This document shows, one piece after another, positions 22,032-39,229 of a stretch of 41,445 nucleotides of DNA. Under the pieces are notes generated by a model. That model did no database searches, was not told the DNA's origin, and saw nothing but the letters and a program-made list of their open reading frames with translations. Source of the stretch: Streptomyces sp. DvalAA-14 (lineage in GTDB: Bacteria > Actinomycetota > Actinomycetes > Streptomycetales > Streptomycetaceae); NCBI RefSeq assembly GCF_900091855.1, contig NZ_FMCH01000590.1:1-41445 (forward strand). The letters are read 5' to 3'. Positions within the stretch are counted from its first letter, which is position 1. Every line of letters starts with the position of its first letter. The translations under genes were made by a program, and so were the position numbers.

Positions 22032-22348
22032 CCAGTCTTCTCTCTGTGGCCACGCGCCGGTCCGGGTCTCTCCGGACGACTGCAAGGCCATGCCTAGGGG
22101 TCCGGGACAGATCGGGCCGAGGTCACCGGCGCCTTGTCAGCCGGATGGCACAAGACCGAAAGGTCACGTCTCTGCCTACAACGGGCTTCGGCGGCTCTTC
22201 CGTAAGACGGGAGCCGCTGTCCCGAAGGAGACATCGCACGTCATCGACTGCCGCAGCGCGTTTGCGTGCTGCGGCCGGTTGCCTCCCCGAGCTGTCTCGC
22301 ATAGCTCGGGCTGAGGGGAGCCGGAGCGAAGCCGACTCGACGTACAGC

Positions 22349-22382
22349 GGCCCCGCACGGTGCGCGAACACCGGACGGGGCC
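22349..22382 (+). promoter_or_regulatory. Leader hairpin before the transfer operon
   Basis: GGCCCCG (22349-22355) pairs with CGGGGCC (22376-22382), and CGGTG (22358-22362) pairs with CACCG (22369-22373). It ends 38 nt before the ATG at 22421, the same spacing as the three related hairpins further down. Its loop differs from theirs, so it is only possibly of the same family. Confidence 0.45.
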
Positions 22383-22420
22383 TTGACCACCTACCTGACG
22401 AACCCAGGAGGCGATCCGCC

Positions 22421-22528
22421 ATGGATCGTATCGACCCCGCTTTACCCCTGACCGACGCCGAACGAGACGAACTGTCGCGGAAGGTCGCCGATGCCAACAA
22501 GCGTTCGGAGAACGGAAGCGGCCGATGA
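22421..22528 (+). CDS. Small protein of 35 aa, first gene of the operon
   Basis: The ORF starts at ATG 22421 with CAGGAGG about 9 bp upstream. Its stop overlaps the next start (ATGA). It is charged and helical (LTDAERDELSRKVADANKR), with no recognised family. The strong ribosome site and overlap indicate a real gene or a translational leader for the next one. Confidence 0.6.
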   Translation: MDRIDPALPLTDAERDELSRKVADANKRSENGSGR

Positions 22529-22977
22529 GTGCCGACCGCACAGACGCCAGTCTGGATGCTGCCCGACTCGACGCGAAGGCGGAGATCGCGCGCACCGATT
22601 CGAAGGTGTCGTTGCTGCTGGCGTTCGTCGGCGCGGTGCTGGCGGGTGTCTGGACCGTTGGTTCAGGGCTTCACCTGCCGGTGCTCGCCGCGGTGCTGGG
22701 CGGTGCCGGAGTGTTGCTGCTGTTGGTCGTGGCCGGTGTGCTGCTGTGGGCAGTCCGTCCGAACCTCGGTGGCGGCCGGCCGGTGGGGTTCCCGCACTGG
22801 GCCACGCTCACCGCCGCGGAGATCCGCAGCGAACTGGCTTGTGAGGACCGAGCCGAGCACATTGCGACCCTGTCGCGGATCGCGGTGCGGAAGTTCACGC
22901 ACCTGCGGCGCGCGGTGGATCTGACCTGTATCGCGCTGGTTCTGCTGGTCGCAGCCCTGCTGACCAGCCTCGTCTGA
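22525..22977 (+). CDS. Pycsar-effector-like (DUF5706-type) membrane protein
   Basis: A 150-aa protein with the layout of Pycsar TM effectors: an N-terminal helix ending in RTDSKVSLLLAF that runs into membrane segment 1 (about residues 28-46), segment 2 (about 52-78), a central soluble stretch (AEIRSELACEDRAEHIATLS, KFTHLRRA) and a terminal segment 3 (IALVLLVAALLTSLV). Pycsar effectors damage membranes in response to cyclic CMP/UMP made by a partner cyclase. No cyclase gene is visible in this window. Inside an AICE operon it may instead act in spreading or pore functions. The domain call is from pattern memory and should be confirmed by profile search. Confidence 0.7.
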   Translation: MSADRTDASLDAARLDAKAEIARTDSKVSLLLAFVGAVLAGVWTVGSGLHLPVLAAVLGGAGVLLLLVVAGVLLWAVRPNLGGGRPVGFPHWATLTAAEIRSELACEDRAEHIATLSRIAVRKFTHLRRAVDLTCIALVLLVAALLTSLV

Positions 22978-22993
22978 CCTTTCACCCCGCGCT

Positions 22994-23032
22994 CGGGACG
23001 GCTGCACATCCGCCAAGACACCGGCCGTCCCG
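22994..23032 (+). promoter_or_regulatory. Intercistronic hairpin, family copy 1
   Basis: CGGGACGGC (22994-23002) pairs with GCCGTCCCG (23024-23032) around a 21-nt loop containing GCACATCCGCCAAGACACC. It starts 16 nt after the preceding stop and ends 34 nt before the next ATG (23067). Copies 2 and 3 lie at 25531-25569 and 29175-29217. Between copies 1 and 2 the loop is 20/21 identical, while two stem pairs change together. Confidence 0.75.
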
Positions 23033-23066
23033 GGCCCCCTTCCCCTTCCGTTCGGAGACGCTTCCC

Positions 23067-23360
23067 ATGCGTGACTACATCGGGCCCCACACGGCCTTGA
23101 CCACTGACGATTTCCTGGAACTCGCCCTGGGCACCCCGCTGGAGCTGTGGCTGGGCACCGACGGCGAGACCGAGCAGGACCGCGCCGCCCGCGAGGCCGC
23201 GGCCCGCGACATCCTCGCCGACGACCCCGCGCTGTTCGACCGCACGACCGCGCTGGCCGTCGAGACCATCGGCCAGACCATGCCGGAGCTGCTGCGCCTG
23301 ACCCCCGCCCCCCGCCCGGCGCCGGTTCGCCGGCCGCGCCGTAAGGGGGTTGCGGCATGA
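23067..23360 (+). CDS. Hypothetical AICE operon protein, 97 aa
   Basis: A soluble, acidic, helical protein (GETEQDRAAREAAARDILAD, FDRTTALAVETIGQTMPELL) with a basic proline-rich tail. GGAG lies 8 bp before the ATG. The stop overlaps the next start (ATGA). I do not recognise the family. It is part of the coupled block with the spread-type genes, so a transfer-associated role is possible. Confidence 0.75.
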   Translation: MRDYIGPHTALTTDDFLELALGTPLELWLGTDGETEQDRAAREAAARDILADDPALFDRTTALAVETIGQTMPELLRLTPAPRPAPVRRPRRKGVAA

Positions 23361-23695
23361 ATAGCGTGACCGCCCCCGCCCCGCTCCCCCTGCATGCGCT
23401 GTCCATCCCGCTGACGGTCCTGCGGCGGCTGGCGGAGGACTTCCCGCACCTGCCCGCCCCGACGGTCGATGTCACGACCATCTACCCGGACCGGCTGACC
23501 CTGACGTTCTTCGACAACCTGCCCGCGTTCGAGGCGTGGCGGGCCGCGCTGCGCATCTCCTGTGAGCAGGTGACCTGCAACATCCAGTCCTCGGGCCGTC
23601 AGTGGCGGCTGAACGCACAGACCGCGTTCGAGGGTGCCACGGTGTGCCTGGTCGGCTACGCCGATGTACCGCAGGCGGGCGGTGAGTCGTCATGA
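23357..23695 (+). CDS. Hypothetical AICE operon protein, 112 aa
   Basis: A soluble protein without membrane segments. The centre (TIYPDRLTLTFFDNLPAFEA, WRLNAQTAFEGATVCLVGYA) suggests an alpha/beta fold. The ATGA overlaps with both neighbours show tight translational coupling. No family recognised. Confidence 0.75.
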   Translation: MNSVTAPAPLPLHALSIPLTVLRRLAEDFPHLPAPTVDVTTIYPDRLTLTFFDNLPAFEAWRAALRISCEQVTCNIQSSGRQWRLNAQTAFEGATVCLVGYADVPQAGGESS

Positions 23696-23916
23696 GCGCC
23701 CACCGTGCGTTACTGCTCGCCGTACGCCGCTTGCGGCTGCTGGCGATCCTGGCCGGTCTGGCCTGGCTGCTGGGTATCGCGCCGCCCGCGCCGTTGCGGC
23801 TGCTGCTGCTCGGGGTGTTCGGCGTCGCGGTGGTGCTCGATCTGCTCGCCGACGCCGGCCTGACCCCGGGCCCGGTCCGGCTGACCGGCTGGGGCCGCCG
23901 CGGGGGTGATGAGTGA
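23692..23916 (+). CDS. Small two-segment membrane protein, 74 aa
   Basis: Two hydrophobic stretches (LLAILAGLAWLLGIA and LRLLLLGVFGVAVVLDLLA) lie between short arginine-rich ends. It overlaps the genes before and after. Small membrane proteins of this kind in streptomycete transfer operons are usually spread (Spd) proteins acting in plasmid movement between mycelial compartments. The specific assignment is inferred. Confidence 0.7.
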   Translation: MSAHRALLLAVRRLRLLAILAGLAWLLGIAPPAPLRLLLLGVFGVAVVLDLLADAGLTPGPVRLTGWGRRGGDE

Positions 23917-24770
23917 TGAACCGCAAGGCCAAAACGCTGCTCGTACTCGCGCTGGTGATTGTGGTCGGTATGGCGTTTCGGGTGTCGTGGAACGCGCTGC
24001 GAGACATCGCCAGCGCGATCGGCGCCGACTCCTCCGCCGCGCTGCTCTACCCGTTCGTGGTCGATGGACTGATGGCGCTGGCGCTGGTGGCCGCGCTCGT
24101 GCTCACCGACGACGATCGCCGTTTCGCGCTGCGCGTGCTCGCCGGGTACACCGCCGCGTCGCTGGTGCTCAACTACGTGCACGGCATGGTGCCCGCACTG
24201 CACACGCACACGGCGGTGCGCATGCATCTGGCCGCGTGGGCGCCCGCCAACTGGGTGCTGGTGCTGCTGGCCACGTCCCTGCCCGTCGGCAGTATCTTCT
24301 TCGGCTCCGATCTGGTGGCCAAGGTGCTGCACCACCGCCCCACACCGGCGTCCGACGCGGCATCCGGCAGCGCCTCGGCGCCCACCGCCGAACGCGGTGA
24401 AGGCGCAGTTCAGCCCGCGTCCGCTCCCGCACCGGATTCCGATCCGGCACCGCTGCCCGGCCCCGCGCCCGCCCGGCCCGCCCGGGTGCGTACGGCGCCG
24501 GGCAAGCCCCGCGCACCGCAGACCCCGGGCACCGGCCGGACCGTGCGTCCGGTGCGCACCGATGCGGAACTGCTGGACGCACTGCGGGACCTGCGCACCG
24601 GCGCGGTCGGGCCGGTCTCGCAGCGCGCCGCGCTGGCCGCGCTCGGCATCGGTGTGCCGCGCCTGCGGGCCCTGCTCGCCGACCACGACCTCACCCTTGA
24701 CCCGATCCCGGCCCCCGCGCCGCTGCACCTGGTCGACACCGACCATGGCGACGGCGCGGCGGCCCTGTGA
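23916..24770 (+). CDS. DUF2637 (SpdB2-like) membrane protein
   Basis: A 284-aa protein from the ATG at 23916, which overlaps the previous stop; an in-frame GTG lies one codon earlier. Four membrane segments occupy the first 130 residues (LLVLALVIVVGMAF, YPFVVDGLMALALVAALVL, LAGYTAASLVLNYVHGMV, WVLVLLATSLPVGSIFF). The motif YPFVVDGLMA is characteristic of DUF2637. A proline/alanine-rich linker leads to a C-terminal helix-turn-helix-like region (SQRAALAALGIGVPRLRALL). Proteins of this type assist intramycelial spread of conjugative elements. Confidence 0.88.
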   Translation: MNRKAKTLLVLALVIVVGMAFRVSWNALRDIASAIGADSSAALLYPFVVDGLMALALVAALVLTDDDRRFALRVLAGYTAASLVLNYVHGMVPALHTHTAVRMHLAAWAPANWVLVLLATSLPVGSIFFGSDLVAKVLHHRPTPASDAASGSASAPTAERGEGAVQPASAPAPDSDPAPLPGPAPARPARVRTAPGKPRAPQTPGTGRTVRPVRTDAELLDALRDLRTGAVGPVSQRAALAALGIGVPRLRALLADHDLTLDPIPAPAPLHLVDTDHGDGAAAL

Positions 24771-24787
24771 GAACGGCAGGCACCCCC

Positions 24788-25105
24788 ATGACCGACCTGT
24801 CCAAAGCATCCGCCGACGCGGTCGAAGCCGCCAGGCAGGGCGAACAGTTCGCCCTCATCCTCGCCGCCGTTCAGGCCGCACAGCTCATACAAGCCCAGCA
24901 GCCCACCCCCGCGCCCCCGCCCGTCGCCGTGCCGCAGCAGTCCAGCGCCGGCGCGGTCGGCAAGTGGCTGGCCATCGGTGCGGGCGCGTCCATGTTCATG
25001 ATCACCGTGGCGTTCGCCGCGGTGGCACTCGCCATCGCGTCCGCGTGCATCGCCCTGGTGGCGCTGGTCGTCTACGGCATCTACCGCGACATCAGGAAGC
25101 GGTGA
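24788..25105 (+). CDS. Small membrane protein of the transfer operon, 105 aa
   Basis: A helical N-terminus (EAARQGEQFALILAAVQAAQ) and a proline-rich linker precede a C-terminal hydrophobic region with two close membrane segments (ASMFMITVAFAAVALAIASA, CIALVALVVYGIY) ending in RDIRKR. The ATG at 24788 is chosen; a GTG at 24767 is in frame. Probably another spread-type protein; no catalytic motif. Confidence 0.7.
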   Translation: MTDLSKASADAVEAARQGEQFALILAAVQAAQLIQAQQPTPAPPPVAVPQQSSAGAVGKWLAIGAGASMFMITVAFAAVALAIASACIALVALVVYGIYRDIRKR

Positions 25106-25157
25106 CCGCCCACCCCCACCCAACGCCCTGACCTTCTGGACCTGGAGGAGGCCCGTC

Positions 25158-25319
25158 CTGTCCACCGCAGCGAACCCGCCCAAGGGCCAGTGCTCCCAGT
25201 GCTGGCAGCACGCCTACACCTCCCGTGAAGCCCACAAGGGACTGGGGCCCCGCGAGGACTGCCCTGCCTGTGTGGACCACATGGTCAAGGGCCACCCTGA
25301 CCACATGATCGTCAAGTGA
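25158..25319 (+). CDS. Zinc-ribbon-like 53-aa protein with apparent CTG start
   Basis: The frame carries two CxxC pairs with following histidines (QCSQCWQHAY and DCPACVDH). This is a likely zinc knuckle. No ATG, GTG or TTG is placed to start it. A strong GGAGGAGG lies 6 bp before CTG 25158, so CTG may be the start, or the genome has a G-to-C change. The stop overlaps a GTG of the next frame. High GC at third positions supports coding. Similar small cysteine-rich proteins accompany transfer genes in streptomycete elements. Confidence 0.55.
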   Translation: MSTAANPPKGQCSQCWQHAYTSREAHKGLGPREDCPACVDHMVKGHPDHMIVK

Positions 25320-25336
25320 CCAACCCCGGAGGCATC

Positions 25337-25522
25337 GTGATCCGCACCCACCCCGACGACCCGCCCCTGACCACCCGCGAGGCCGCCGACATCGCCCGTA
25401 TCACCGCGCTCGCCGCGCTGCGCGGGGGTGTCCTGACCACCCGCCAGGAAAACCGGATCGACCGCATCATCGACGGCGCCCACCAGCGCGCCAACAAGGC
25501 CGCCACCGCGGCCAGCACGTGA
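25337..25522 (+). CDS. Small protein of 61 aa in the transfer operon
   Basis: The start is GTG 25337, with CGGAGG 4 bp upstream; a GTG at 25316 overlaps the previous stop and is an alternative. The protein is helical and charged (LTTREAADIARITALAALRG, RQENRIDRIIDGAHQRANKA), reminiscent of small DNA-associated proteins, but I do not recognise a family. It ends 9 bp before intercistronic hairpin copy 2. Confidence 0.65.
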   Translation: MIRTHPDDPPLTTREAADIARITALAALRGGVLTTRQENRIDRIIDGAHQRANKAATAAST

Positions 25523-25530
25523 CTCCACCC

Positions 25531-25569
25531 CGGGGTGGCCGCACATCCGCCAAGACACCGGCCACCCCG
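25531..25569 (+). promoter_or_regulatory. Intercistronic hairpin, family copy 2
   Basis: CGGGGTGGC (25531-25539) pairs with GCCACCCCG (25561-25569). The 21-nt loop differs from copy 1 at one base only. Relative to copy 1, an A-T pair becomes G-C and a C-G pair becomes T-A, so pairing is kept while sequence changes. It ends 39 nt before the ATG at 25609. Confidence 0.75.
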
Positions 25570-25608
25570 GGCCCCTCACTCCTCATGCAGGAAGAAGGAA
25601 CCACCAGC

Positions 25609-27813
25609 ATGACCGAGATCATCGACCTTAGCGCCCACCGGGCCCGCACCCGCCCGGATGCGCCGATACCCGACTCCGCCCCGGACCTGACCAAGTACGA
25701 TGCGCCGCCCGCACCGCGTGAGGTGCTGGAAGGCGTCGTCATCCCCTCCGGTGTTCCCGCTGGGGGGAAGGCGGCTGCCGGCCGCGCGGCGTTGCGTCGC
25801 AGCGCCCGTGCCGTCGCTGTGACGCGGCACGTCGTGACCCACGACCGCACCAAGAACGGCGCTCGACTGGCCACCCGGCACACCGCCTACGTGGCCGGCG
25901 GCGCCCGCATCCTGGCCAAACGCGCGTGGGACGGCCGGACCACCGCCCGCTACGAACGCATGATGCGATCGGCCGAAGCGGCGGGCCAGCACGAATCCGC
26001 CCTTGAATGGGAGCAGCGCGCGGCGGCGTTCCGTCAGCAGCGTCACCAGCGCCGTATGGACCTGCTGACCGCGCCGCAGCGGCTGGTCAAGGGCGCGGTC
26101 GTGGGCACCGCCGGTACCGCAGGCGGCCTGCTCGGGCTGGGCATCTTGCTGGCGGTTGCCGAGCACAACCCGGACGCGGTGCTGGCGCCGACGATGTTCA
26201 CCATCGACATGATCCGGTGGGCGGTGGTCATCGTGTCGGTGGTGTGGGGCCCGGCGCTGTTCCTGGCCCCGTGGCTGGCGTTCCTCGGGTTGTGGAACAC
26301 CGGACGGCACGGGCAGGCCGCCCCACAGTGGACCCTGCCCGGGGGCGGTCCGGACAAGCGGGACGTGGTGCCGGACGAGGGCGCGATCCTGGACGCGCTG
26401 CGCAACCTGGGCATCCCCGCGCTGAACAAGGCTTTCAAAGACGGGTGGCAGCCCCGCTGGGTCTCGCCGACCGTGCGCCTGGGCAACGGGTACCACACCC
26501 GGTTGCAGCTCCCGATGGGTGTCACGGTGGAGAAGGTCAACGACTGCAAGAAGATCCTCGCCCACAACCTGCTGCGCCTGCCGGTGGAGGTGTGGCCGAC
26601 CGAGCCGCGTGACCAGCCCGGCGTCATCGACTTGTGGGTCGCCGACCAGGGTAGCCTGTCCGGTCCGGTGCCGCCGTGGCCGCTGCTCACCGACGGCACC
26701 GCCGACTACTTCAAGGGCGTGCCCGTCGGGGTTTCGCAGCGCGGGGAGCCGGTGTTCGGCAAGCTCATGGCCGCCAACTACATGATCGGCGGCATCATGG
26801 GCACCGGGAAGTCGTCCCTAACCGTGGGGCTGCTGCTGGGGGCAATGCTCGATCCGCTGGTGGACATCGACGTCTACGTCATGGCCTACAACATCGACTA
26901 CGACCCCATGCGCGAGCGGCTGCGGACCCTGGTCAAGGGCGACGAGGACGAGCAGATCGAAGCCGCCCTCGACGCGCTGCGGGACCTGCGCGACGAGGTC
27001 ACCGAGCGCGGCAAGCTGCTCGCGGAGTTGGGTGGGGACGACCCGAAGCTGACCCGTGAGCTGGCCGAACGCGACCCGCGGATGCGCCCGCGGGTGGTCG
27101 TCTTCGACGAGTGCCACGAGCTGTTCATGCACAAGAAGTACGGCGAGGAAGCCGCTGAACTGGCCATCAAGGTGATGAAGAAGGCCCGCAAGCTGGGCAT
27201 CACCCTGATCTGGGTCACGGTCTCGCCGACCGCGGACAGCATCCCGAAGGACGTCACCCGCAACACCTCCCACCGGGCTGCGTTCGCGGTCGGCGACCAC
27301 GTCGCCAACGACGGACTCTTGGGCACGGGCAAGCACCGCGCGGGCATCACCGCCACCACCCTCAGCCCCGCCGAAGACGTCGGCACGACCCTGACCGTGG
27401 GGTTCACCAAGAACGCGTTCGAGCTTCTGCGCACGTACTACGTGCGCAAGGACGCCAGCACCGACCAGGTCACCCCGGTGGTGGCCAGGGCGCTGGCGCT
27501 GCGCGAAGGGGTCGCACCCTCGGCTCCGGTAGTGCCGACGGGCGCGCCGGTCGATCACCTCGCCGACATCGCAGCCGTGCTCGGGGACCAGGACCTGATG
27601 CGCACGCAGGAGGTGTTGCAGCGCCTCGCCGCGCACAACCTGCGTGAGTACGGCGGCTGGACGTTCACCGAGCTGCGCCGGGTGCTGGACCCGCACGGGG
27701 CGGTCCGCAAGGTCAGCGTCATGGTCGTGGACCGCGCCAAGGTCCGCGAAGCCCTCGCCAACCGGACCACCGACGCGGACGCCACGGACACCGCCGAAGG
27801 TGACTTTGAGTAA
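25609..27813 (+). CDS. traB: TraB/FtsK-SpoIIIE-type DNA translocase
   Basis: A 734-aa membrane-anchored motor. ATG 25609 follows GAAGAAGGA. Two membrane segments lie at about residues 161-188 and 202-230. The FtsK-type ATPase follows, with Walker A GIMGTGKSS near 395-403 and Walker B VVVFDECHEL near 495-505. The C-terminal region (DLMRTQEVLQRL, YGGWTFTELRRVLD, VREAL) looks like the winged-helix DNA-recognition part. Such hexameric pumps move double-stranded DNA between mycelia during streptomycete conjugation without a relaxase. Its recognition repeats (clt) should be nearby; the repeats at 27814-27980 and 31616-31832 are candidates. Confidence 0.93.
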   Translation: MTEIIDLSAHRARTRPDAPIPDSAPDLTKYDAPPAPREVLEGVVIPSGVPAGGKAAAGRAALRRSARAVAVTRHVVTHDRTKNGARLATRHTAYVAGGARILAKRAWDGRTTARYERMMRSAEAAGQHESALEWEQRAAAFRQQRHQRRMDLLTAPQRLVKGAVVGTAGTAGGLLGLGILLAVAEHNPDAVLAPTMFTIDMIRWAVVIVSVVWGPALFLAPWLAFLGLWNTGRHGQAAPQWTLPGGGPDKRDVVPDEGAILDALRNLGIPALNKAFKDGWQPRWVSPTVRLGNGYHTRLQLPMGVTVEKVNDCKKILAHNLLRLPVEVWPTEPRDQPGVIDLWVADQGSLSGPVPPWPLLTDGTADYFKGVPVGVSQRGEPVFGKLMAANYMIGGIMGTGKSSLTVGLLLGAMLDPLVDIDVYVMAYNIDYDPMRERLRTLVKGDEDEQIEAALDALRDLRDEVTERGKLLAELGGDDPKLTRELAERDPRMRPRVVVFDECHELFMHKKYGEEAAELAIKVMKKARKLGITLIWVTVSPTADSIPKDVTRNTSHRAAFAVGDHVANDGLLGTGKHRAGITATTLSPAEDVGTTLTVGFTKNAFELLRTYYVRKDASTDQVTPVVARALALREGVAPSAPVVPTGAPVDHLADIAAVLGDQDLMRTQEVLQRLAAHNLREYGGWTFTELRRVLDPHGAVRKVSVMVVDRAKVREALANRTTDADATDTAEGDFE

Positions 27814-27980
27814 GGGAGGGAGCCAGGGAGGCAGGGAGAACTCCCTGACCCCCTCCCTAACCCCGCCTCCCTGACCTGATCTGCGGCAACACCGCTACAG
27901 GGAGGCAGGGAGGCACATCCTCTGGACCTGCGGAAACCCCGAAAATGGCTACTTCCCGGGGTGAACCCTGCCTCCCTCCC
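27814..27980. repeat. GGGAGG/CCTCCC repeat cluster after traB
   Basis: GGGAGG occurs at 27814, 27826, 27900 and 27908, and CCTCCC at 27852, 27866, 27971 and 27975. The second group forms an 11-bp inverted repeat: GGGAGGCAGGG (27900-27910) with CCCTGCCTCCC (27966-27976). It sits between traB and the cytosine methyltransferase gene. It may be a TraB recognition locus (clt), a replication element or a leader structure. Confidence 0.6.
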
Positions 27981-28021
27981 TGCACTTAGAGTTACCAATG
28001 TTGAGGGGAGAACGCCACCTC

Positions 28022-29167
28022 ATGAATCATCCGGAGACCATCCCGGACGTCCTGCGGCTGGGCTCGCTGTGCACCGGATACGGCGGCCTGGACATGGCCG
28101 TCCAGGCCGTCATCGGCGGGTCGCCGGCGTGGGTCGCCGACAACGACCCCGGCGCCGCCCGCATCCTCGCCCACCACTTCCCGGACGTGCCCAACCTCGG
28201 GGACATCACCGACACCGACTGGACCACTGTTCCGCCCGTGGATGTCGTGCTGGGCGGGTACCCGTGCCAGCCGTTCAGCTCTGCGGGCAAGAGGAAGGGA
28301 ACTGCTGATGCCCGGCATATCTGGCCCCACATCGCCACCGCCCTTCGCGTTCTACGACCCCGTCTCGCGGTCTTTGAGAACGTCGCAGGTCACCTTTCCC
28401 TCGGATTCGACACCGTCCTGTCCGACCTTGCCGCCCTCGGGTTCGATGCGTGCTGGCGCACTCTTCGCGCATCGGATGTCGGCGCCGCCCACCAGCGCAA
28501 CCGCCTGTTCGTCATCGCCTGGCCTGCCGACACCGGCAGCCAGGGACTGGCGCGGCGGCGGCCAGAGGGGGCAACTGCCGACCGCGGTGGGCTCGCTGCT
28601 GCCGACCCCCTCGACGTCGGAGGCGACCGGCGCCGGCCACGCCGCGCAGGGCGGGATGAACCTGCGGCACGTCGTCTCGCTGCTGCCGACCCCGAGAGCG
28701 TCGGAGCGGGAGAACCGGCAGACCAGGCGCACCCCGTCGCAGGAAGCGGGACGGCACGGCCTGTGCCTGGCAGCCGAGGTGTGCGAACTGCTGCCGACCC
28801 CGGTCGTGGGGGACTCCAAGGGAGCCCGGCAGGCGACCGCACCCAACCCGCGCAGCACCTCGCCGACGCTGACCGATCTGACATTCACCGGCCTGGCTGG
28901 GGCCGCTACGCCGCCGCGATCCAGCGGTGGGAAGCGGTCATCGGACGTCCCGCCCCCGGGCCAGTTGACGCTCTGGGACGCCTGAACCCGCCCCTCGTCG
29001 AGTGGCTGATGGGCCTGCCCGAAGGGCACGTCACCGCCGTGCCCGGCCTGTCGCGCACCGCGCAGCTCAAAGCCCTCGGCAACGGCGTCGTCCCCCACCA
29101 GGCCACCGCCGCACTCCGCACCCTGCTCGCCGCAGCACATCCCCACACTGCGGCACACGCCGCCTGA
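28022..29167 (+). CDS. C5-cytosine DNA methyltransferase with frame-discordant centre
   Basis: The protein has 381 aa. An ATG at 27998 is also in frame. Family motifs are clear: LCTGYGGLDMA (SAM binding), PCQPFS with catalytic C82, ENVAGH, HQRNRLFVIA and the final GNGVVPHQA. The middle, about 28520-28895, is the target-recognition part. In the called frame it is an arginine/alanine-rich string with poor third-position GC. The next frame over reads LPTPAARDWRGGG, MNLRHVVSLLPTPRASE and CELLPTPVVGDSKG with high third-position GC, the style I know from this family. Two compensating frameshifts are therefore likely, and target recognition may be altered. No restriction endonuclease lies beside it, so it would serve self-protection or anti-restriction. 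Confidence 0.88.
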   Translation: MNHPETIPDVLRLGSLCTGYGGLDMAVQAVIGGSPAWVADNDPGAARILAHHFPDVPNLGDITDTDWTTVPPVDVVLGGYPCQPFSSAGKRKGTADARHIWPHIATALRVLRPRLAVFENVAGHLSLGFDTVLSDLAALGFDACWRTLRASDVGAAHQRNRLFVIAWPADTGSQGLARRRPEGATADRGGLAAADPLDVGGDRRRPRRAGRDEPAARRLAAADPESVGAGEPADQAHPVAGSGTARPVPGSRGVRTAADPGRGGLQGSPAGDRTQPAQHLADADRSDIHRPGWGRYAAAIQRWEAVIGRPAPGPVDALGRLNPPLVEWLMGLPEGHVTAVPGLSRTAQLKALGNGVVPHQATAALRTLLAAAHPHTAAHAA

Positions 29168-29174
29168 ATCCGCC

Positions 29175-29217
29175 CGGGGCGGCCGCCGCATCTCGCCAAA
29201 GAACCGCGGCCGTCCCG
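29175..29217 (+). promoter_or_regulatory. Intercistronic hairpin, family copy 3
   Basis: CGGGGCGGC (29175-29183) pairs with GCCGTCCCG (29209-29217), with one G-U pair. The 25-nt loop is a lengthened variant sharing GCA, TC, CGCCAA, GA and ACC in the same order as copies 1 and 2. It begins 8 bp after the preceding stop and ends 37 nt before the ATG at 29255. Confidence 0.65.
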
Positions 29218-29254
29218 GTACCAGCACCCATCAAGGAACCGGAGACCACCCAGC

Positions 29255-30160
29255 ATGACCCATCCCACCCCATCCCCGCTGCTGTCCGCAGCACTGGCCG
29301 CAGCCGCCCGCGGCTGGCCCGTCATCCCACTGCACCCCGGCGGGAAGGTCCCCGCGCTGCACGGGGAACGCCGCTGCCCCCGTACCGGCGACTGCGCCGA
29401 CGGACACCGCACGTTCGAGCAGCGCGCCACCACCGACCCCGACCGCATCCAGAGCTGCTGGACCTCGGGCCCGTTCAACGTCGGTATCGCCACCGGCCCC
29501 GCCGGACTGCTGGTGGTCGATCTCGACACGCTCAAGCCGACAGACGAAAAGGGCACGCCTGACGGCGTGGAAACCTTCTCTGCGCTCTGCGAGCGCGCCG
29601 GGAAGCCCGCACCGGTCACCCGCCGCATCCGGACCGCAAGCGGCGGGCAGCACCTGTACTTCAGCGTCCCGCCCGGCATCCGGCTCGGCAACACCGCCGG
29701 AACCGTCGCCCGGAAGGTGGACACCCGCGCATGGGGCGGACAAGTCGTCGCCCCCGGCAGCCGAACCCCTGTGGGCCCGTACACGGTCCTGGACGACTCC
29801 CCCGTTGCAAACCTACCCGAATGGCTCCAAACAGCTCTGACGGCCCCTCAGAAGCCCGTGGCGGCCACCATCCGGCCCGTGGCCACCCGCGACGCCTCCC
29901 GTCTCGCCACGGTGGTCCTCGAACGCGAAACCGCCGCAGTCGCCATGGCCGTTGAGGGCGGGCGCAACGCCGAACTGCTGCGCGCCGTGCGGGCGGTGGG
30001 CCGGTTCGTGGCGTGGGGGGACCTTGACCGCGCCACCGTAGAAGCGGCTTTTCAGGCGGGGGGCGAAACCGCCGGACTGCCAGCGTCCGAGTGCCGCGCC
30101 ACCATCCGCAGCGCCCTGGACTACTCCATCCGCACCGCCCGACCCCGGGAGGCGGCATGA
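29255..30160 (+). CDS. Bifunctional DNA primase/polymerase (Prim-Pol)
   Basis: A 301-aa protein with the archaeo-eukaryotic-primase-like fold of mobile elements: AAARGWPVIPLHPGGKVPAL at the start, an acidic VVDLDTLKPTDEKG motif near residue 90, a histidine motif SGGQHLYFSVP near 130 and a later RAWGGQVVAPGSRTPVG. These are the expected metal- and nucleotide-binding residues. It makes primers or initiates replication of the excised element. It is followed by a DUF3631 ATPase, giving the Prim-Pol type of AICE replication module and not the RepSA type. Confidence 0.9.
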   Translation: MTHPTPSPLLSAALAAAARGWPVIPLHPGGKVPALHGERRCPRTGDCADGHRTFEQRATTDPDRIQSCWTSGPFNVGIATGPAGLLVVDLDTLKPTDEKGTPDGVETFSALCERAGKPAPVTRRIRTASGGQHLYFSVPPGIRLGNTAGTVARKVDTRAWGGQVVAPGSRTPVGPYTVLDDSPVANLPEWLQTALTAPQKPVAATIRPVATRDASRLATVVLERETAAVAMAVEGGRNAELLRAVRAVGRFVAWGDLDRATVEAAFQAGGETAGLPASECRATIRSALDYSIRTARPREAA

Positions 30161-30325: not shown

Positions 30326-30517
30326 GTGATCGCATGGCTCCACATCGTGGCCCCCTCGGACTGGCGGGCCACCCCCCGGGCCACCTCGCACTGCCTGTGC
30401 GGGCGCCACGTCACCGCCAAGGGACGTGACGTCGTGCTCGCCCTGGTCGCCGACCACGCCGACCACCGCACCCTGTGCACGCTGCACACCGCACCGGAAA
30501 GGAGGCAGGCGGCATGA
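30326..30517 (+). CDS. Small Cys/His-rich protein, 63 aa
   Basis: It begins at GTG 30326 and ends in an ATGA overlap with the DUF3631 gene. The motif CLCGRH, then LVADHADHRTLCTLH, suggests a single zinc site. It has good codon bias and coupling to the next gene. Such small zinc proteins recur in AICE replication modules; the function is unknown. Confidence 0.6.
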   Translation: MIAWLHIVAPSDWRATPRATSHCLCGRHVTAKGRDVVLALVADHADHRTLCTLHTAPERRQAA

Positions 30518-31689
30518 CCACCGAGAACGGCGCCACCCTGCTGGACGAGATCGAGGGCTTTCACCGCCGCTTCAACGCCTTCCCCACCCAAGCCGCCTAC
30601 GTCGCCGTAGTCCTCTGGAACGCCCACTCCCACCTGCTGGACTGCTTCGACTCCACACCCCGCCTCGCCTTCCTCTCACCGGAACCGGGGTCGGGCAAGA
30701 CGCGCGGACTGGAGATCTGCGGAACCCTGGTTCCCAACCCGATGGCAGCGGTCAACGCCTCTCCGGCCGCGCTGTTCCGCGCGGTGTCGATGGAGTCGGG
30801 CCGCCCGACGATCCTGTTTGACGAGATCGACACCGTATTCGGCCCCAAAGCCGGCGACAACGAGGAACTGCGCGGACTGATCAACGCCGGACACCGCCGC
30901 ATCGGGGTGTCCTACCGGTGCGTGAGCGTCGGGGATCAGCAGGTCGTCCAGCCCTTCCCCGTCTACGCCGCGGTAGCCATGGCCGGTCTCGGGTGGCTAC
31001 CCGACACCATCCTTCACCGCTCCGTCGTCATCCGCATGCGGCGCCGGGCACCCAACGAGCACGTGGAAGCCTTCCGGGCCCGCATCCACGAACCGGAAGG
31101 CCACGAACTGCGCGACCGCCTCGCCGCATGGGCCGACGCTGTCCGCGACCGCGTGGCCGGCGCGTTCCCCGCCATGCCCGAAGGCGTCAACGACCGCCCC
31201 GCCGATGTCTGGGAACCCCTGCTCGCCGTCGCCGACGCTGCCGGCGGCACCTGGCCCGATCGGGCCCGCAACGCGTGCGTGGAACTCGTCACCGCCGCCG
31301 CCGAAGGCAGCAAAGCCTCCCTCGGAATCGGCCTGCTGACCGACCTTCGCACCGTGTTCAACGGCGCCGACCGGATGCCCACCGCGCAGATCGTCGCGGC
31401 CCTGACCGACATGGACGAAGCGCCCTGGGCCGACGTGGACGGCAAACCGCTGAACTCCCGGCTGCTGTCTAAGCACCTCGCCGAATACGTCACCGCCGAC
31501 AACCAGCCCATCAAAGCCCGCAACATCCGGCTTGGCGGAGGAGTCGTCAAGGGCTACTACGCCACCGACCTCCGCGACGCATGGGCCCGCTACTGCCCCC
31601 CTCCCCCCGGAAAATCCGCTACATCCGCTACACACCCCGAAAAACTGCCCCTGACCAGCCATGACGCTGTAGCGGACACGACCCGCTGA
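30514..31689 (+). CDS. DUF3631-type P-loop ATPase of the replication module
   Basis: The protein has 391 aa from ATG 30514, with GGAGG about 10 bp upstream; a GTG at 30475 lacks a ribosome site. It carries Walker A EPGSGKTRGLE, Walker B TILFDEIDTVFG and an arginine-rich IRMRRRAPNE downstream, then the DUF3631 C-terminal region (LLTDLRTVFNGADRMPTAQI, LRDAWARYCPP). With the upstream Prim-Pol it probably forms a primase-helicase unit that replicates the excised AICE. Its 3' end already contains three of the CCGCTACA iterons. Confidence 0.85.
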   Translation: MTTENGATLLDEIEGFHRRFNAFPTQAAYVAVVLWNAHSHLLDCFDSTPRLAFLSPEPGSGKTRGLEICGTLVPNPMAAVNASPAALFRAVSMESGRPTILFDEIDTVFGPKAGDNEELRGLINAGHRRIGVSYRCVSVGDQQVVQPFPVYAAVAMAGLGWLPDTILHRSVVIRMRRRAPNEHVEAFRARIHEPEGHELRDRLAAWADAVRDRVAGAFPAMPEGVNDRPADVWEPLLAVADAAGGTWPDRARNACVELVTAAAEGSKASLGIGLLTDLRTVFNGADRMPTAQIVAALTDMDEAPWADVDGKPLNSRLLSKHLAEYVTADNQPIKARNIRLGGGVVKGYYATDLRDAWARYCPPPPGKSATSATHPEKLPLTSHDAVADTTR

Positions 31690-31941: not shown

Positions 31942-32130
31942 GTGACCACCGCCCCGCCGCAAGCCCTGACCGTCCCCGAAGTCATGACCGCCCTACGAAT
32001 CAGCCGCAGCAAGGTCTACGACCTGTTCCGCGCCCGCGAACTCCCCAGCTTCACCGTCGGCCGCTCTCGCCGCGTCGCCGAAACCGCCCTGACCGCGTAC
32101 ATGCAGCACCGAACTGAGGAGAACAACTGA
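31942..32130 (+). CDS. xis: Excisionase (element B)
   Basis: A 62-aa protein from GTG 31942, with AGGAGG 5 bp upstream. The whole protein is a MerR-like helix-turn-helix (LTVPEVMTALRISRSKVYDL) with a wing (FTVGRSRRVAETALTAYM), the standard AICE excisionase. The stop overlaps the integrase start (ATGA), so both are made together. It directs excision from tRNA-Pro. Confidence 0.9.
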   Translation: MTTAPPQALTVPEVMTALRISRSKVYDLFRARELPSFTVGRSRRVAETALTAYMQHRTEENN

Positions 32131-33413
32131 TGGCCAAACGCCGCGCCAACGGTGAGGGCACGATCACCAAACGCGCTGACGGCCGGTACCAGGCTGCCGC
32201 GTACGTCTTCCGTCCCGACGGAACCCGGGTCCGCAAATTCGCCTACGGCAAGACTCGCGCGGAAGTCGCCGAAAAGCTCACCGCCATGCAGGAGCAGACC
32301 CGGCAGGGCATTCCCGCCGCCACGTCGGCCATGTGCCTGACGGACTTCCTCACCTACTGGCTGGTGGCCGTCGCCGCGGTCCGGCTCAAACCCTCGACGC
32401 TCATGAGCTACGAGGTCATGTCCCGCGTCTACATCGAACCGAAGCTCGGCAGGAAGAAGCTCAACCGCCTGTCTCCCGCCGACATCCGGCTGTTCCTCGC
32501 CGAATTCAAGAACGGCTGCCTGTGCTGCCTGCGGGGCCTGGACAGCGACCGCCCGGAGGAAGACCGAACGTGCTGCGCGGTCGGGAAGTGCTGCAAGCGC
32601 CGGCCGTCCGCCCGCACCGTCCAGTACGCGCATTCCGTACTCCGCTCGGCACTGCAACAGGCAGTCCGCGAAGAACTCATCACCCGCAACGTCGCGCGGA
32701 TCGTGGAAACCCCCACGGTGCCGCGGGAGGAGGTACGCCCCCTGGACAGGACCGAAGCCAAGATGCTGCTCAAGACCGCGAAGGGGCACCGCCTCTACGC
32801 CCTGTGGCTGCTGCTCGTCTCCACCGGCCTGCGCCGCGGCGAAGTGCTGGCCCTGACCTGGGACGACATCGACCTTGACCGCGGACAGCTCCGGGTCCGC
32901 CGGAACCTCCAGCGGATCAAGAAAGAGCTGCTGTTCGGCACTCCGAAGACGGCCCGTTCCCTCCGCACGATCTCGCTGCCCCAGGGATGCGTGACCGCGC
33001 TCAAGGCACACCGCACCACCCACCAGGCGGAGCGCGCCGCCGCTGGCCAGCACTGGACCCCGCTCGCGTCGCAGCCCGCGGGGCTCGTCTTCACCACCAG
33101 CACCGGCAGGCCGACCGACCCGCGCAGCCTGAACCGGATGCTGACCGTGCTGTGCCGGGAGGCCAAGGTCCGACAGGTCCGCGTGCACGACCTCCGGCAC
33201 ACCTGCGCCTCGCTGCTGCTCGCACAGGGAGTGGACGCCCGGACCATCATGGAAACGCTCGGGCACAGCACCATCACCATGACCCTGGACACCTACGCGC
33301 ACGTGATGGACTCGACGCTCAGGAAGGCCGCAGACCGCATGGACGACGCGCTGTCGCTGGACGACGGAGAGGAGGGCGACGACGGAGCTGCGGGAGTGCC
33401 TGCGAGGGTCTGA
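32130..33413 (+). CDS. int: Tyrosine integrase of element B
   Basis: A 427-aa pSAM2-like integrase. The N-terminus is an arm-binding AP2-like domain (GEGTITKRADGRYQAAAYV). Residues of about 70-190 form the core-binding domain, with a cysteine-rich insertion at 130-155 holding seven cysteines. The catalytic domain has R235 in TGLRRGEVL, H353 and R356 in HDLRHTC, H379 in LGHS and Y389 in DTYAHV, so it should be active. The gene ends 67 bp before the tRNA core. It recombines the tRNA 3' half with attP. Confidence 0.95.
   Translation: MAKRRANGEGTITKRADGRYQAAAYVFRPDGTRVRKFAYGKTRAEVAEKLTAMQEQTRQGIPAATSAMCLTDFLTYWLVAVAAVRLKPSTLMSYEVMSRVYIEPKLGRKKLNRLSPADIRLFLAEFKNGCLCCLRGLDSDRPEEDRTCCAVGKCCKRRPSARTVQYAHSVLRSALQQAVREELITRNVARIVETPTVPREEVRPLDRTEAKMLLKTAKGHRLYALWLLLVSTGLRRGEVLALTWDDIDLDRGQLRVRRNLQRIKKELLFGTPKTARSLRTISLPQGCVTALKAHRTTHQAERAAAGQHWTPLASQPAGLVFTTSTGRPTDPRSLNRMLTVLCREAKVRQVRVHDLRHTCASLLLAQGVDARTIMETLGHSTITMTLDTYAHVMDSTLRKAADRMDDALSLDDGEEGDDGAAGVPARV

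Positions 33414-33479: not shown

Positions 33480-33558
<79 letters not shown>

Positions 33559-35022: not shown

Positions 35023-39229
<4,207 letters not shown>

Follow-up and report, generated by a model that had tools for sequence, protein, structure and literature searches.

Judging from the available portions of its descriptions, the nearest known counterpart of the hairpins reported here is the ESAS repeat of the cluster K mycobacteriophages. The hairpins lie between genes of what reads, by gene content, as an actinomycete integrative conjugative element (AICE; 22.5-33.6 kb) in Streptomyces sp. DvalAA-14. The window, by which we mean the whole 41,445-nucleotide stretch analysed (NZ_FMCH01000590.1), is one entire contig of a 7.9-Mb genome assembled in 669 contigs. 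Like the present hairpin, ESAS is described in those portions as a repeated intergenic inverted repeat upstream of selected start codons, with several copies per genome in actinobacterial mobile elements (PMC3203893, PMC11373665, PMC12699233). It has 17-bp arms and mostly a 4-13 bp spacer, and according to its authors the departures within the arms generally do not support RNA pairing (PMC3203893); later work places a putative SigA-like promoter inside it (PMC3203893, PMC11373665, PMC12699233). SAS/ESAS-like repeats of cluster EF Microbacterium phages are likewise conserved at or just upstream of start codons, but the part of that report at hand describes them as weakly conserved around a GTAGAG core and describes no covarying hairpin (PMC7302621). 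The conAn system of the pLS20 family also uses hairpin signals along a Gram-positive conjugation operon to control expression, and its antitermination illustrates how RNA signals can control conjugation operons; as far as the accessible text goes, it differs in consisting of a single bipartite system at the head of the operon together with ordinary terminators, with no shared intercistronic hexaloop hairpin described (PMC8955417).

The present hairpin departs from ESAS, as reported, in that its arms covary and its hexaloop is fixed, whereas ESAS has consensus arms without compensation. The 13-bp SAS GGGATAGGAGCCC was not found at the start codon in the leaders read by eye; what precedes the ATG there is an AGGAG-like site and, in many cases, CAGC or CATC. 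As to a promoter, a scan admitting strict consensus matches only gave no sigma-70-like site in window positions 22300-29300, which decides little. In its architecture the iron-responsive element is alike: this operator hairpin combines a fixed hexaloop, a covarying short upper helix, an unpaired interruption, a variable lower stem and a leader location. The two would work alike, but they have no sequence relation, the present hairpin belongs to bacterial mobile elements, and its docking factor is putative. The RNase III sites of T7 early mRNA are internal-loop hairpins between the genes of a polycistronic mRNA, with longer, irregular stems and no fixed hexaloop. They share the intercistronic position and the internal loop with the present hairpins, whose stems are shorter, whose hexaloop is fixed and whose cleavage is putative.

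Structure and covariation of the hairpins

The hairpins of the window are as follows.

22993..23033, + strand: hairpin copy 1, 12-bp stem, internal loop CACA/CAC, apical helix UC/GA, hexaloop CGCCAA
25529..25571, + strand: hairpin copy 2, 13-bp stem including a flanking C-G pair; core 25530-25570
29174..29218, + strand: hairpin copy 3, 13-bp stem, internal loop CGCA/ACC, apical helix UCU/AGA, hexaloop CGCCAA
22349..22382, + strand: fourth hairpin, 5-bp apical helix, hexaloop CGCGAA, 38 nt before the ATG at 22421

Copies 1-3 stand where a preliminary description of this DNA had put them, and they share a fold: a GC-rich stem of 12-13 bp, a 4/3 internal loop, an apical helix of 2-3 bp and the hexaloop CGCCAA. 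That description gave the stem as 9 bp, which is too short; its 21-nt loop is indeed common to copies 1 and 2 and resolves into the internal loop, short apical helix and hexaloop. The two stem pairs said to change jointly between copies 1 and 2 (A-T to G-C, C-G to T-A) do so. Copy 3, taken to have a lengthened loop, is related as proposed and has the same fold with one extra apical pair (UCU/AGA) and one extra stem pair. With the revised boundaries, the distance from hairpin to start codon, given as 34-39 nt, becomes 33, 38 and 36 nt for copies 1-3. Between stop and stem lie six unpaired nucleotides in copies 2 and 3 (stops at 25520-25522 and 29165-29167), and 13-15 in copy 1.

At up to three mismatches, the window contains just two instances of the 19-nt loop core, those of copies 1 and 2, against 0.00 occurrences expected from shuffles. 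Folded with ~10-nt flanks, all copies do better than shuffles (z -3.36, -4.40 and -3.11 for copies 1-3); for whole gaps the margin is smaller (z -1.75, -3.93 and -2.57), with 11, 1 and 2 of 200 shuffles equally good. The window hairpins stand at junctions without overlap of open reading frames (ORFs), and the gaps 25105-25316 and 27813-27998 carry none. The fourth hairpin has the same kind of spacing, as had been stated, and its supposedly different loop is also a hexaloop. Neither of the covariance models R1 and R2 described below reports it, and from its sequence it is possibly a divergent relative that they miss.

Covariation was assessed on 118 matches comprising 102 distinct sequences. 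Across these, 99.0% of pair cells pair, so that the stems of relatives keep pairing, a check that the preliminary description had asked for. Both sides change at 11 of the 14 pairs, and double-change cells number 169 against a shuffled mean of 33; a control in which partners are slid abolishes the signal. Under a tree-based null (our own script, modelled on R-scape), 7 of the 14 pairs covary at E below 0.05, three pairs are invariant, and no non-structure pair is significant, the best having E of about 33. The compensating changes and significant covariation bear out the proposal that the structure is under selection, as opposed to a repeat copied by chance. Its extension to the mRNA strand as the working molecule is weakened by flipped copies, to which we return below.

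The two apical pairs beside the loop take six Watson-Crick forms (UC-GA, CU-AG, GC-GC, CC-GG, AC-GU and GU-AC). Of 183 distinct sites, 169 have (C/G)GCCAA as their hexaloop, a count that is biased because the models favour that loop. As a loop-unbiased sample, we fetched 30 traB loci, the nearest relatives of the window TraB, from 96 matching genomes of 200. Read by eye, their leaders carry CGCCAA in ten cases, CGGCAA in six, the flipped form UUGCCG in two, and GGCCAA, CUGGCA, CUGCCA, CGGCCA and CACCAA once each; four of the 30 (L324, L340, L342, L344) are uninformative since their start codon is misplaced. Hairpin length is 37-46 nt, a 33-nt loopless case apart. In that case (L050:107-139) the position and the stem are the same and the loop is merely UGCACACAC, the stem being kept without the hexaloop.

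Distribution, carriers and placement

Structured hairpins of this family are widespread in the mobile DNA of Streptomyces and relatives. In the host genome, a pattern search turned up a further loop on contig C382, differing at one position and borne on a different yet fully paired stem that precedes a second traB-like gene. Covariance model R1, built from copies 1 and 2 and the C382 hairpin, recovers copy 3, left out of its construction, at E 8.3e-6, and reports hairpins in 32 of 61 genomes (E up to 0.1; all genome tallies count our own). Model R2, built from 34 sequences, matches 29 of 35 genomes of the genus (E up to 1e-3), 134 of 297 of the family and 14 of 296 of the class (both at E up to 1e-4). 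The broader model R3, whose underlying alignment includes one antisense row (L322), matches 117 of 197 genomes in the order and 25 of 296 in the class, 5 of the 25 outside the family (E up to 1e-3). Searching with the exact loop pattern placed leaders also in Herbidospora and Nocardiopsis; nine of its 14 contigs look real, and the other five (L080, L083, L085, L086, L091) look like chance. A 38-nt form is common in Streptomyces. The covariance-model search suggested in the preliminary description thus yields further copies in related elements.

At Rfam 15 gathering scores only a tRNA is matched in the window, and at E up to 5 no family overlaps any hairpin within 22200-29400, in line with the earlier statement that no described RNA family fits. 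The permissive matches besides the tRNA (microRNA-like, ftsZ-DE over repeats at 27.8 kb and snoRNA-like at 23.1 kb) are all below cut-off and were discarded. Searches of open-access main texts gave no earlier description of the hairpin that we recognised; a screen of 50 bacterial genomes reports Streptomyces motifs, and none of those described in the part of its text at hand is the present hairpin (PMC11109978).

Recurrence before tra and rep genes in other elements, which had been anticipated, is confirmed. In the host genome the 38-nt form lies in an element (L055) with FtsK, DUF2637, RepSA (pSAM2 type) and an integrase, and two carriers are circular: one is an element of 13.5 kb from Streptomyces sp. 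NBC_00859, the other a plasmid of 27.9 kb. Among viral contigs we found 45 hairpins in 112 stretches, four of them doubtful (L286, L269, L253 and L210, which are without a leader and look like chance). Viral contig L261 has terminase and portal matches and a DUF2637 protein upstream of its hairpin. The related Streptomyces phage OnionKnight and the Streptomyces phage Kromp each carry one copy in the right-hand genome stretches examined. Such phage copies make a conjugation-only role less likely. The mobile-element location was read from the loci described individually. In OnionKnight the copy (38972-39012; L347:18973-19013) follows a row of annotated membrane-protein genes and precedes a tiny gene near the right end.

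The proteins encoded downstream fall into clusters, the largest being Prim-Pol (33) and TraB (32), both named after their window members, and a phage protein no longer than 63 aa (27). There follow a small CxxC protein (11), an 85-aa protein (10, with the start 67-74 nt away in nine), a nameless cluster (7), the small gene after copy 1 with its relatives (5), and then pairs and singletons. An apparent likeness of the seven-protein cluster, with starts like MTHQAFLRR, to a methylase was dropped; the one member compared with Pfam matches nothing there at E up to 1e-3.

Placement relative to the flanking genes is tight. At 84 of 127 distinct sites exactly 6 nt separate the stop codon from the first paired base of the stem, and at 101 the gap is 5-7 nt; stops at 6 or 7 nt are TGA in 57 cases, TAG in 29 and TAA in 7. 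By comparison, control hairpins behind stops in the same loci are widely scattered, 16 of 376 having the 6-nt gap against 56 of 104 family-like ones. When starts are picked with no preferred distance, the downstream start lies 27-51 nt away at 101 of the 127 places and 34-42 nt away at 78 (median 39), 25 others being further away and one nearer. Distance figures rest on these picks; the gene-cluster and orientation analyses used a script favouring ~38 nt (range 27-51 nt, median 38, n=148). Before 85-aa-type proteins (L058 at 4632, L121 at 3774, L134 at 2976) the start is 67-72 nt off, and the usual place of the start reads GGAGG...CATCCTCC, which could be a ribosome-binding site hidden in a small second hairpin.

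By script, 158 of the 183 distinct sites are in forward orientation, 7 are flipped and 18 are undecided. With this skew and the fixed stop and start spacing, the family does not behave like a REP- or MITE-like repeat, expected in both orientations with no fixed relation to genes. Hairpins are somewhat more alike within a locus than between loci (mean likeness 0.77, n=37 pairs, vs 0.71), and plasmid L058 has four hairpins with a mutual likeness of 0.93-0.98 and leaders with one of 0.48-0.64. Five elements were compared for the hairpin that precedes the first small gene, and in four of them it is nearer to another hairpin of its own element than to same-position hairpins elsewhere; the loopless L050 hairpin was left out of this comparison, and the first gene of L052 is from a different protein cluster.

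Possible roles of the hairpin

We tentatively favour, at somewhat less than an even chance, an intercistronic mRNA leader hairpin that separates independently translated gene blocks and whose hexaloop docks a putative trans-acting factor. The hairpin would form in the polycistronic transcript right behind the stop codon of one block, the members of which overlap by 4 nt in the window, and the next gene would be initiated independently ~38 nt downstream. A stop codon in the ribosomal A site plus 6 nt would put the start of the stem about at the mRNA entry. With this gap a ribosome could terminate at the stop and leave the stem nearly intact, the stem starting as near the stop as it can without being melted by the ribosome. 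The stem would isolate the two messages by stopping ribosome run-on and exonucleases, so that the gene downstream has a clean leader and a ribosome-binding site of its own, and the apical helix with the (C/G)GCCAA hexaloop would dock a host- or element-encoded factor that sets processing, stability or translation of these genes jointly. Fold, covariation, placement and distribution are demonstrated; RNA formation, the isolating role, and the factor with its effect we infer from the covariation, the constancy of the hexaloop beside varying apical pairs, the 6-nt stop gap and the gene-specific placement before traB, Prim-Pol and others.

Several observations weigh against this reading. Seven of 183 sites, about five events by our own grouping, are flipped and would present UUGGCG or UUGGCC as the mRNA loop; one flipped lineage persists in three genomes, and by eye the traB leaders L332 and L336 and the viral locus L301 are flipped too. 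The 6-nt rule is broken by copy 1, several operon-head hairpins and many phage copies, and control post-stop hairpins have a weak mode of their own at 7 nt (26/376). Three of the 30 traB leaders (L341, L343, L345) carry hairpins with unrelated loops at the same place. Outer-stem mismatches in 152 distinct sequences (A-C 24, G-T 13 and 24 others, most of which stem from the shorter helix of the 38-nt form) lack the G-U excess expected of an RNA helix, though this is uninformative, as control hairpins in the same loci give similar numbers. Copies 1, 2 and 3 match better outside the element (0.88, 0.88, 0.98) than inside it (0.85, 0.85, 0.69), and gene type therefore also shapes the hairpin. Finally, no protein is known to bind the hairpin, and no systematic search for one was made.

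Unrelated loops in some divergent traB leaders, the kept stem without a hexaloop at L050:107, flipped copies that hold their place and the great stability of the stems would all suit a purely structural punctuation mark, acting as an attenuator, a weak terminator or a protector of mRNA ends, that needs no trans-acting factor and whose hexaloop is inherited or a folding aid. We regard this as conceivable, if unlikely. Such a hairpin would be of the U-tract-free type of actinomycetes. The present hairpins have no U-tract, with at most two T in the next 10 nt at 136 of 176 unflipped sites and five at 5 of the 176. A terminator scan does not report them, a silence that says little since the scan admits loops of 3-8 nt only. 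The lack of a U-tract counts against ordinary termination, and this explanation accounts neither for a fixed hexaloop beside a freely covarying apical helix nor for an exact 6-nt gap that other post-stop hairpins are without. That flips are tolerated and inherited, with apical helix and hexaloop surviving them, suits an element acting as DNA, for instance a cruciform or single-stranded hairpin bound by a protein on either strand, which would serve for binding, replication or transfer and whose position between genes would be incidental. Similar numbers of A-C and G-T mismatches would point the same way, but control hairpins in the same loci show them as well (A-C 23, G-T 13, others 21), which leaves that comparison undecided; inverted repeats are also reported for the clt transfer loci of Streptomyces plasmids, in the part of that literature available (PMC3583192). 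We consider such an element improbable, given an orientation skew of 158 to 7, stop and start spacings (6 and ~38 nt) that have no evident reason at the DNA level, and tailed-phage copies (L261) that make a conjugation-only role unlikely. An early use of the missing G-U excess as a sign of DNA (G-T 8 vs A-C 14) was withdrawn, the control hairpins giving a like ratio.

Whole hairpin-and-leader units are duplicated around a gene in three loci (L108, L146 and L171: hairpin identity 1.00, 0.98 and 0.93; leader identity 0.89, 0.92 and 0.97), as they would be if hairpin and leader formed a repeated unit for recombinational gain and loss of accessory genes, loosely like an integron attC site. That the hairpin marks such a cassette boundary seems to us very improbable: leader identity is at least 0.85 in just these three of 37 within-locus pairs, hairpins elsewhere can match while leaders differ, and capture would hardly produce a gap of exactly 6 nt after genes that are unrelated. 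No recombinase is tied to the hairpin, and none was searched for. Other ideas were discarded along the way. Loop-loop kissing within an element was rejected: all three window loops are CGCCAA, thus not mutually complementary, and both loop forms occur together in L050 only. A ribosomal RNA partner was dropped by reasoning, as the pairs adjoining the loop vary, and a double-stranded DNA operator because the arms covary and hairpin length varies.

A bolder form of the mRNA leader hairpin, which we think rather doubtful, would make it a new class of regulatory RNA that joins transfer, replication and accessory genes of unrelated mobile elements (AICEs, plasmids and tailed phages of Streptomycetaceae and some other actinobacteria) into a regulon read by one dedicated factor. 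That factor, perhaps a hairpin-specific endonuclease or processing protein, would cut or mark the mRNA between blocks at the (C/G)GCCAA apex. A structured element common to three kinds of mobile DNA, with strong statistics and no Rfam match in the window, allows one to test by what means compact conjugative elements and phages keep adjacent genes of a single transcript independent of each other, and it offers a way to find the putative nucleic-acid-binding factor; the 6-nt stop distance makes a link to ribosome termination directly testable.

In the flipped sites the stop is still 5-7 nt away in six of seven, and the leader is retained. Comparing L332 and L336 with L331, L333 and L334, we note that the entire hairpin is inverted between similar flanks, a natural flip of a short palindrome.

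Genes of the element

The AICE setting proposed in the preliminary description is upheld by a TraB-like protein, Prim-Pol, DUF3631 and a tyrosine integrase adjoining a tRNA-Pro.

22525..22977, + strand: gene preceding copy 1, PycTM domain (Pfam)
23067..25105, + strand: block of five ORFs with 4-nt overlaps (starts 23067, 23357, 23692, 23913 for DUF2637, and 24767)
25316..25522, + strand: DUF6257 gene preceding copy 2 (domain match)
25609..27813, + strand: TraB-like FtsK/SpoIIIE translocase following copy 2
27998..29167, + strand: C5 cytosine methylase preceding copy 3 (domain match)
29255..30160, + strand: bifunctional primase/polymerase (Prim-Pol) following copy 3 (domain match)
30475..31689, + strand: DUF3631 gene, start codon uncertain
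32130..33413, + strand: tyrosine integrase
33484..33558, - strand: tRNA-Pro adjoining the integrase (Rfam/tRNA match)

The TraB-like protein scores 21.1 bits against Pfam FtsK_SpoIIIE, just under the cut-off of 24. The tRNA-Pro next to the integrase is likely the attachment site of the element. The PycTM gene (Pfam: Pycsar effector protein), directly before the first hairpin, is cargo of the conjugative element. The gap between traB and the methylase gene (27811-27990) is dense in short inverted and direct repeats of the AGGGAGGCAGGGA type and could be an origin or transfer site; a 50-nt piece of it with TGATCTGCGGCAAC recurs in a second element (L053, near 1421).

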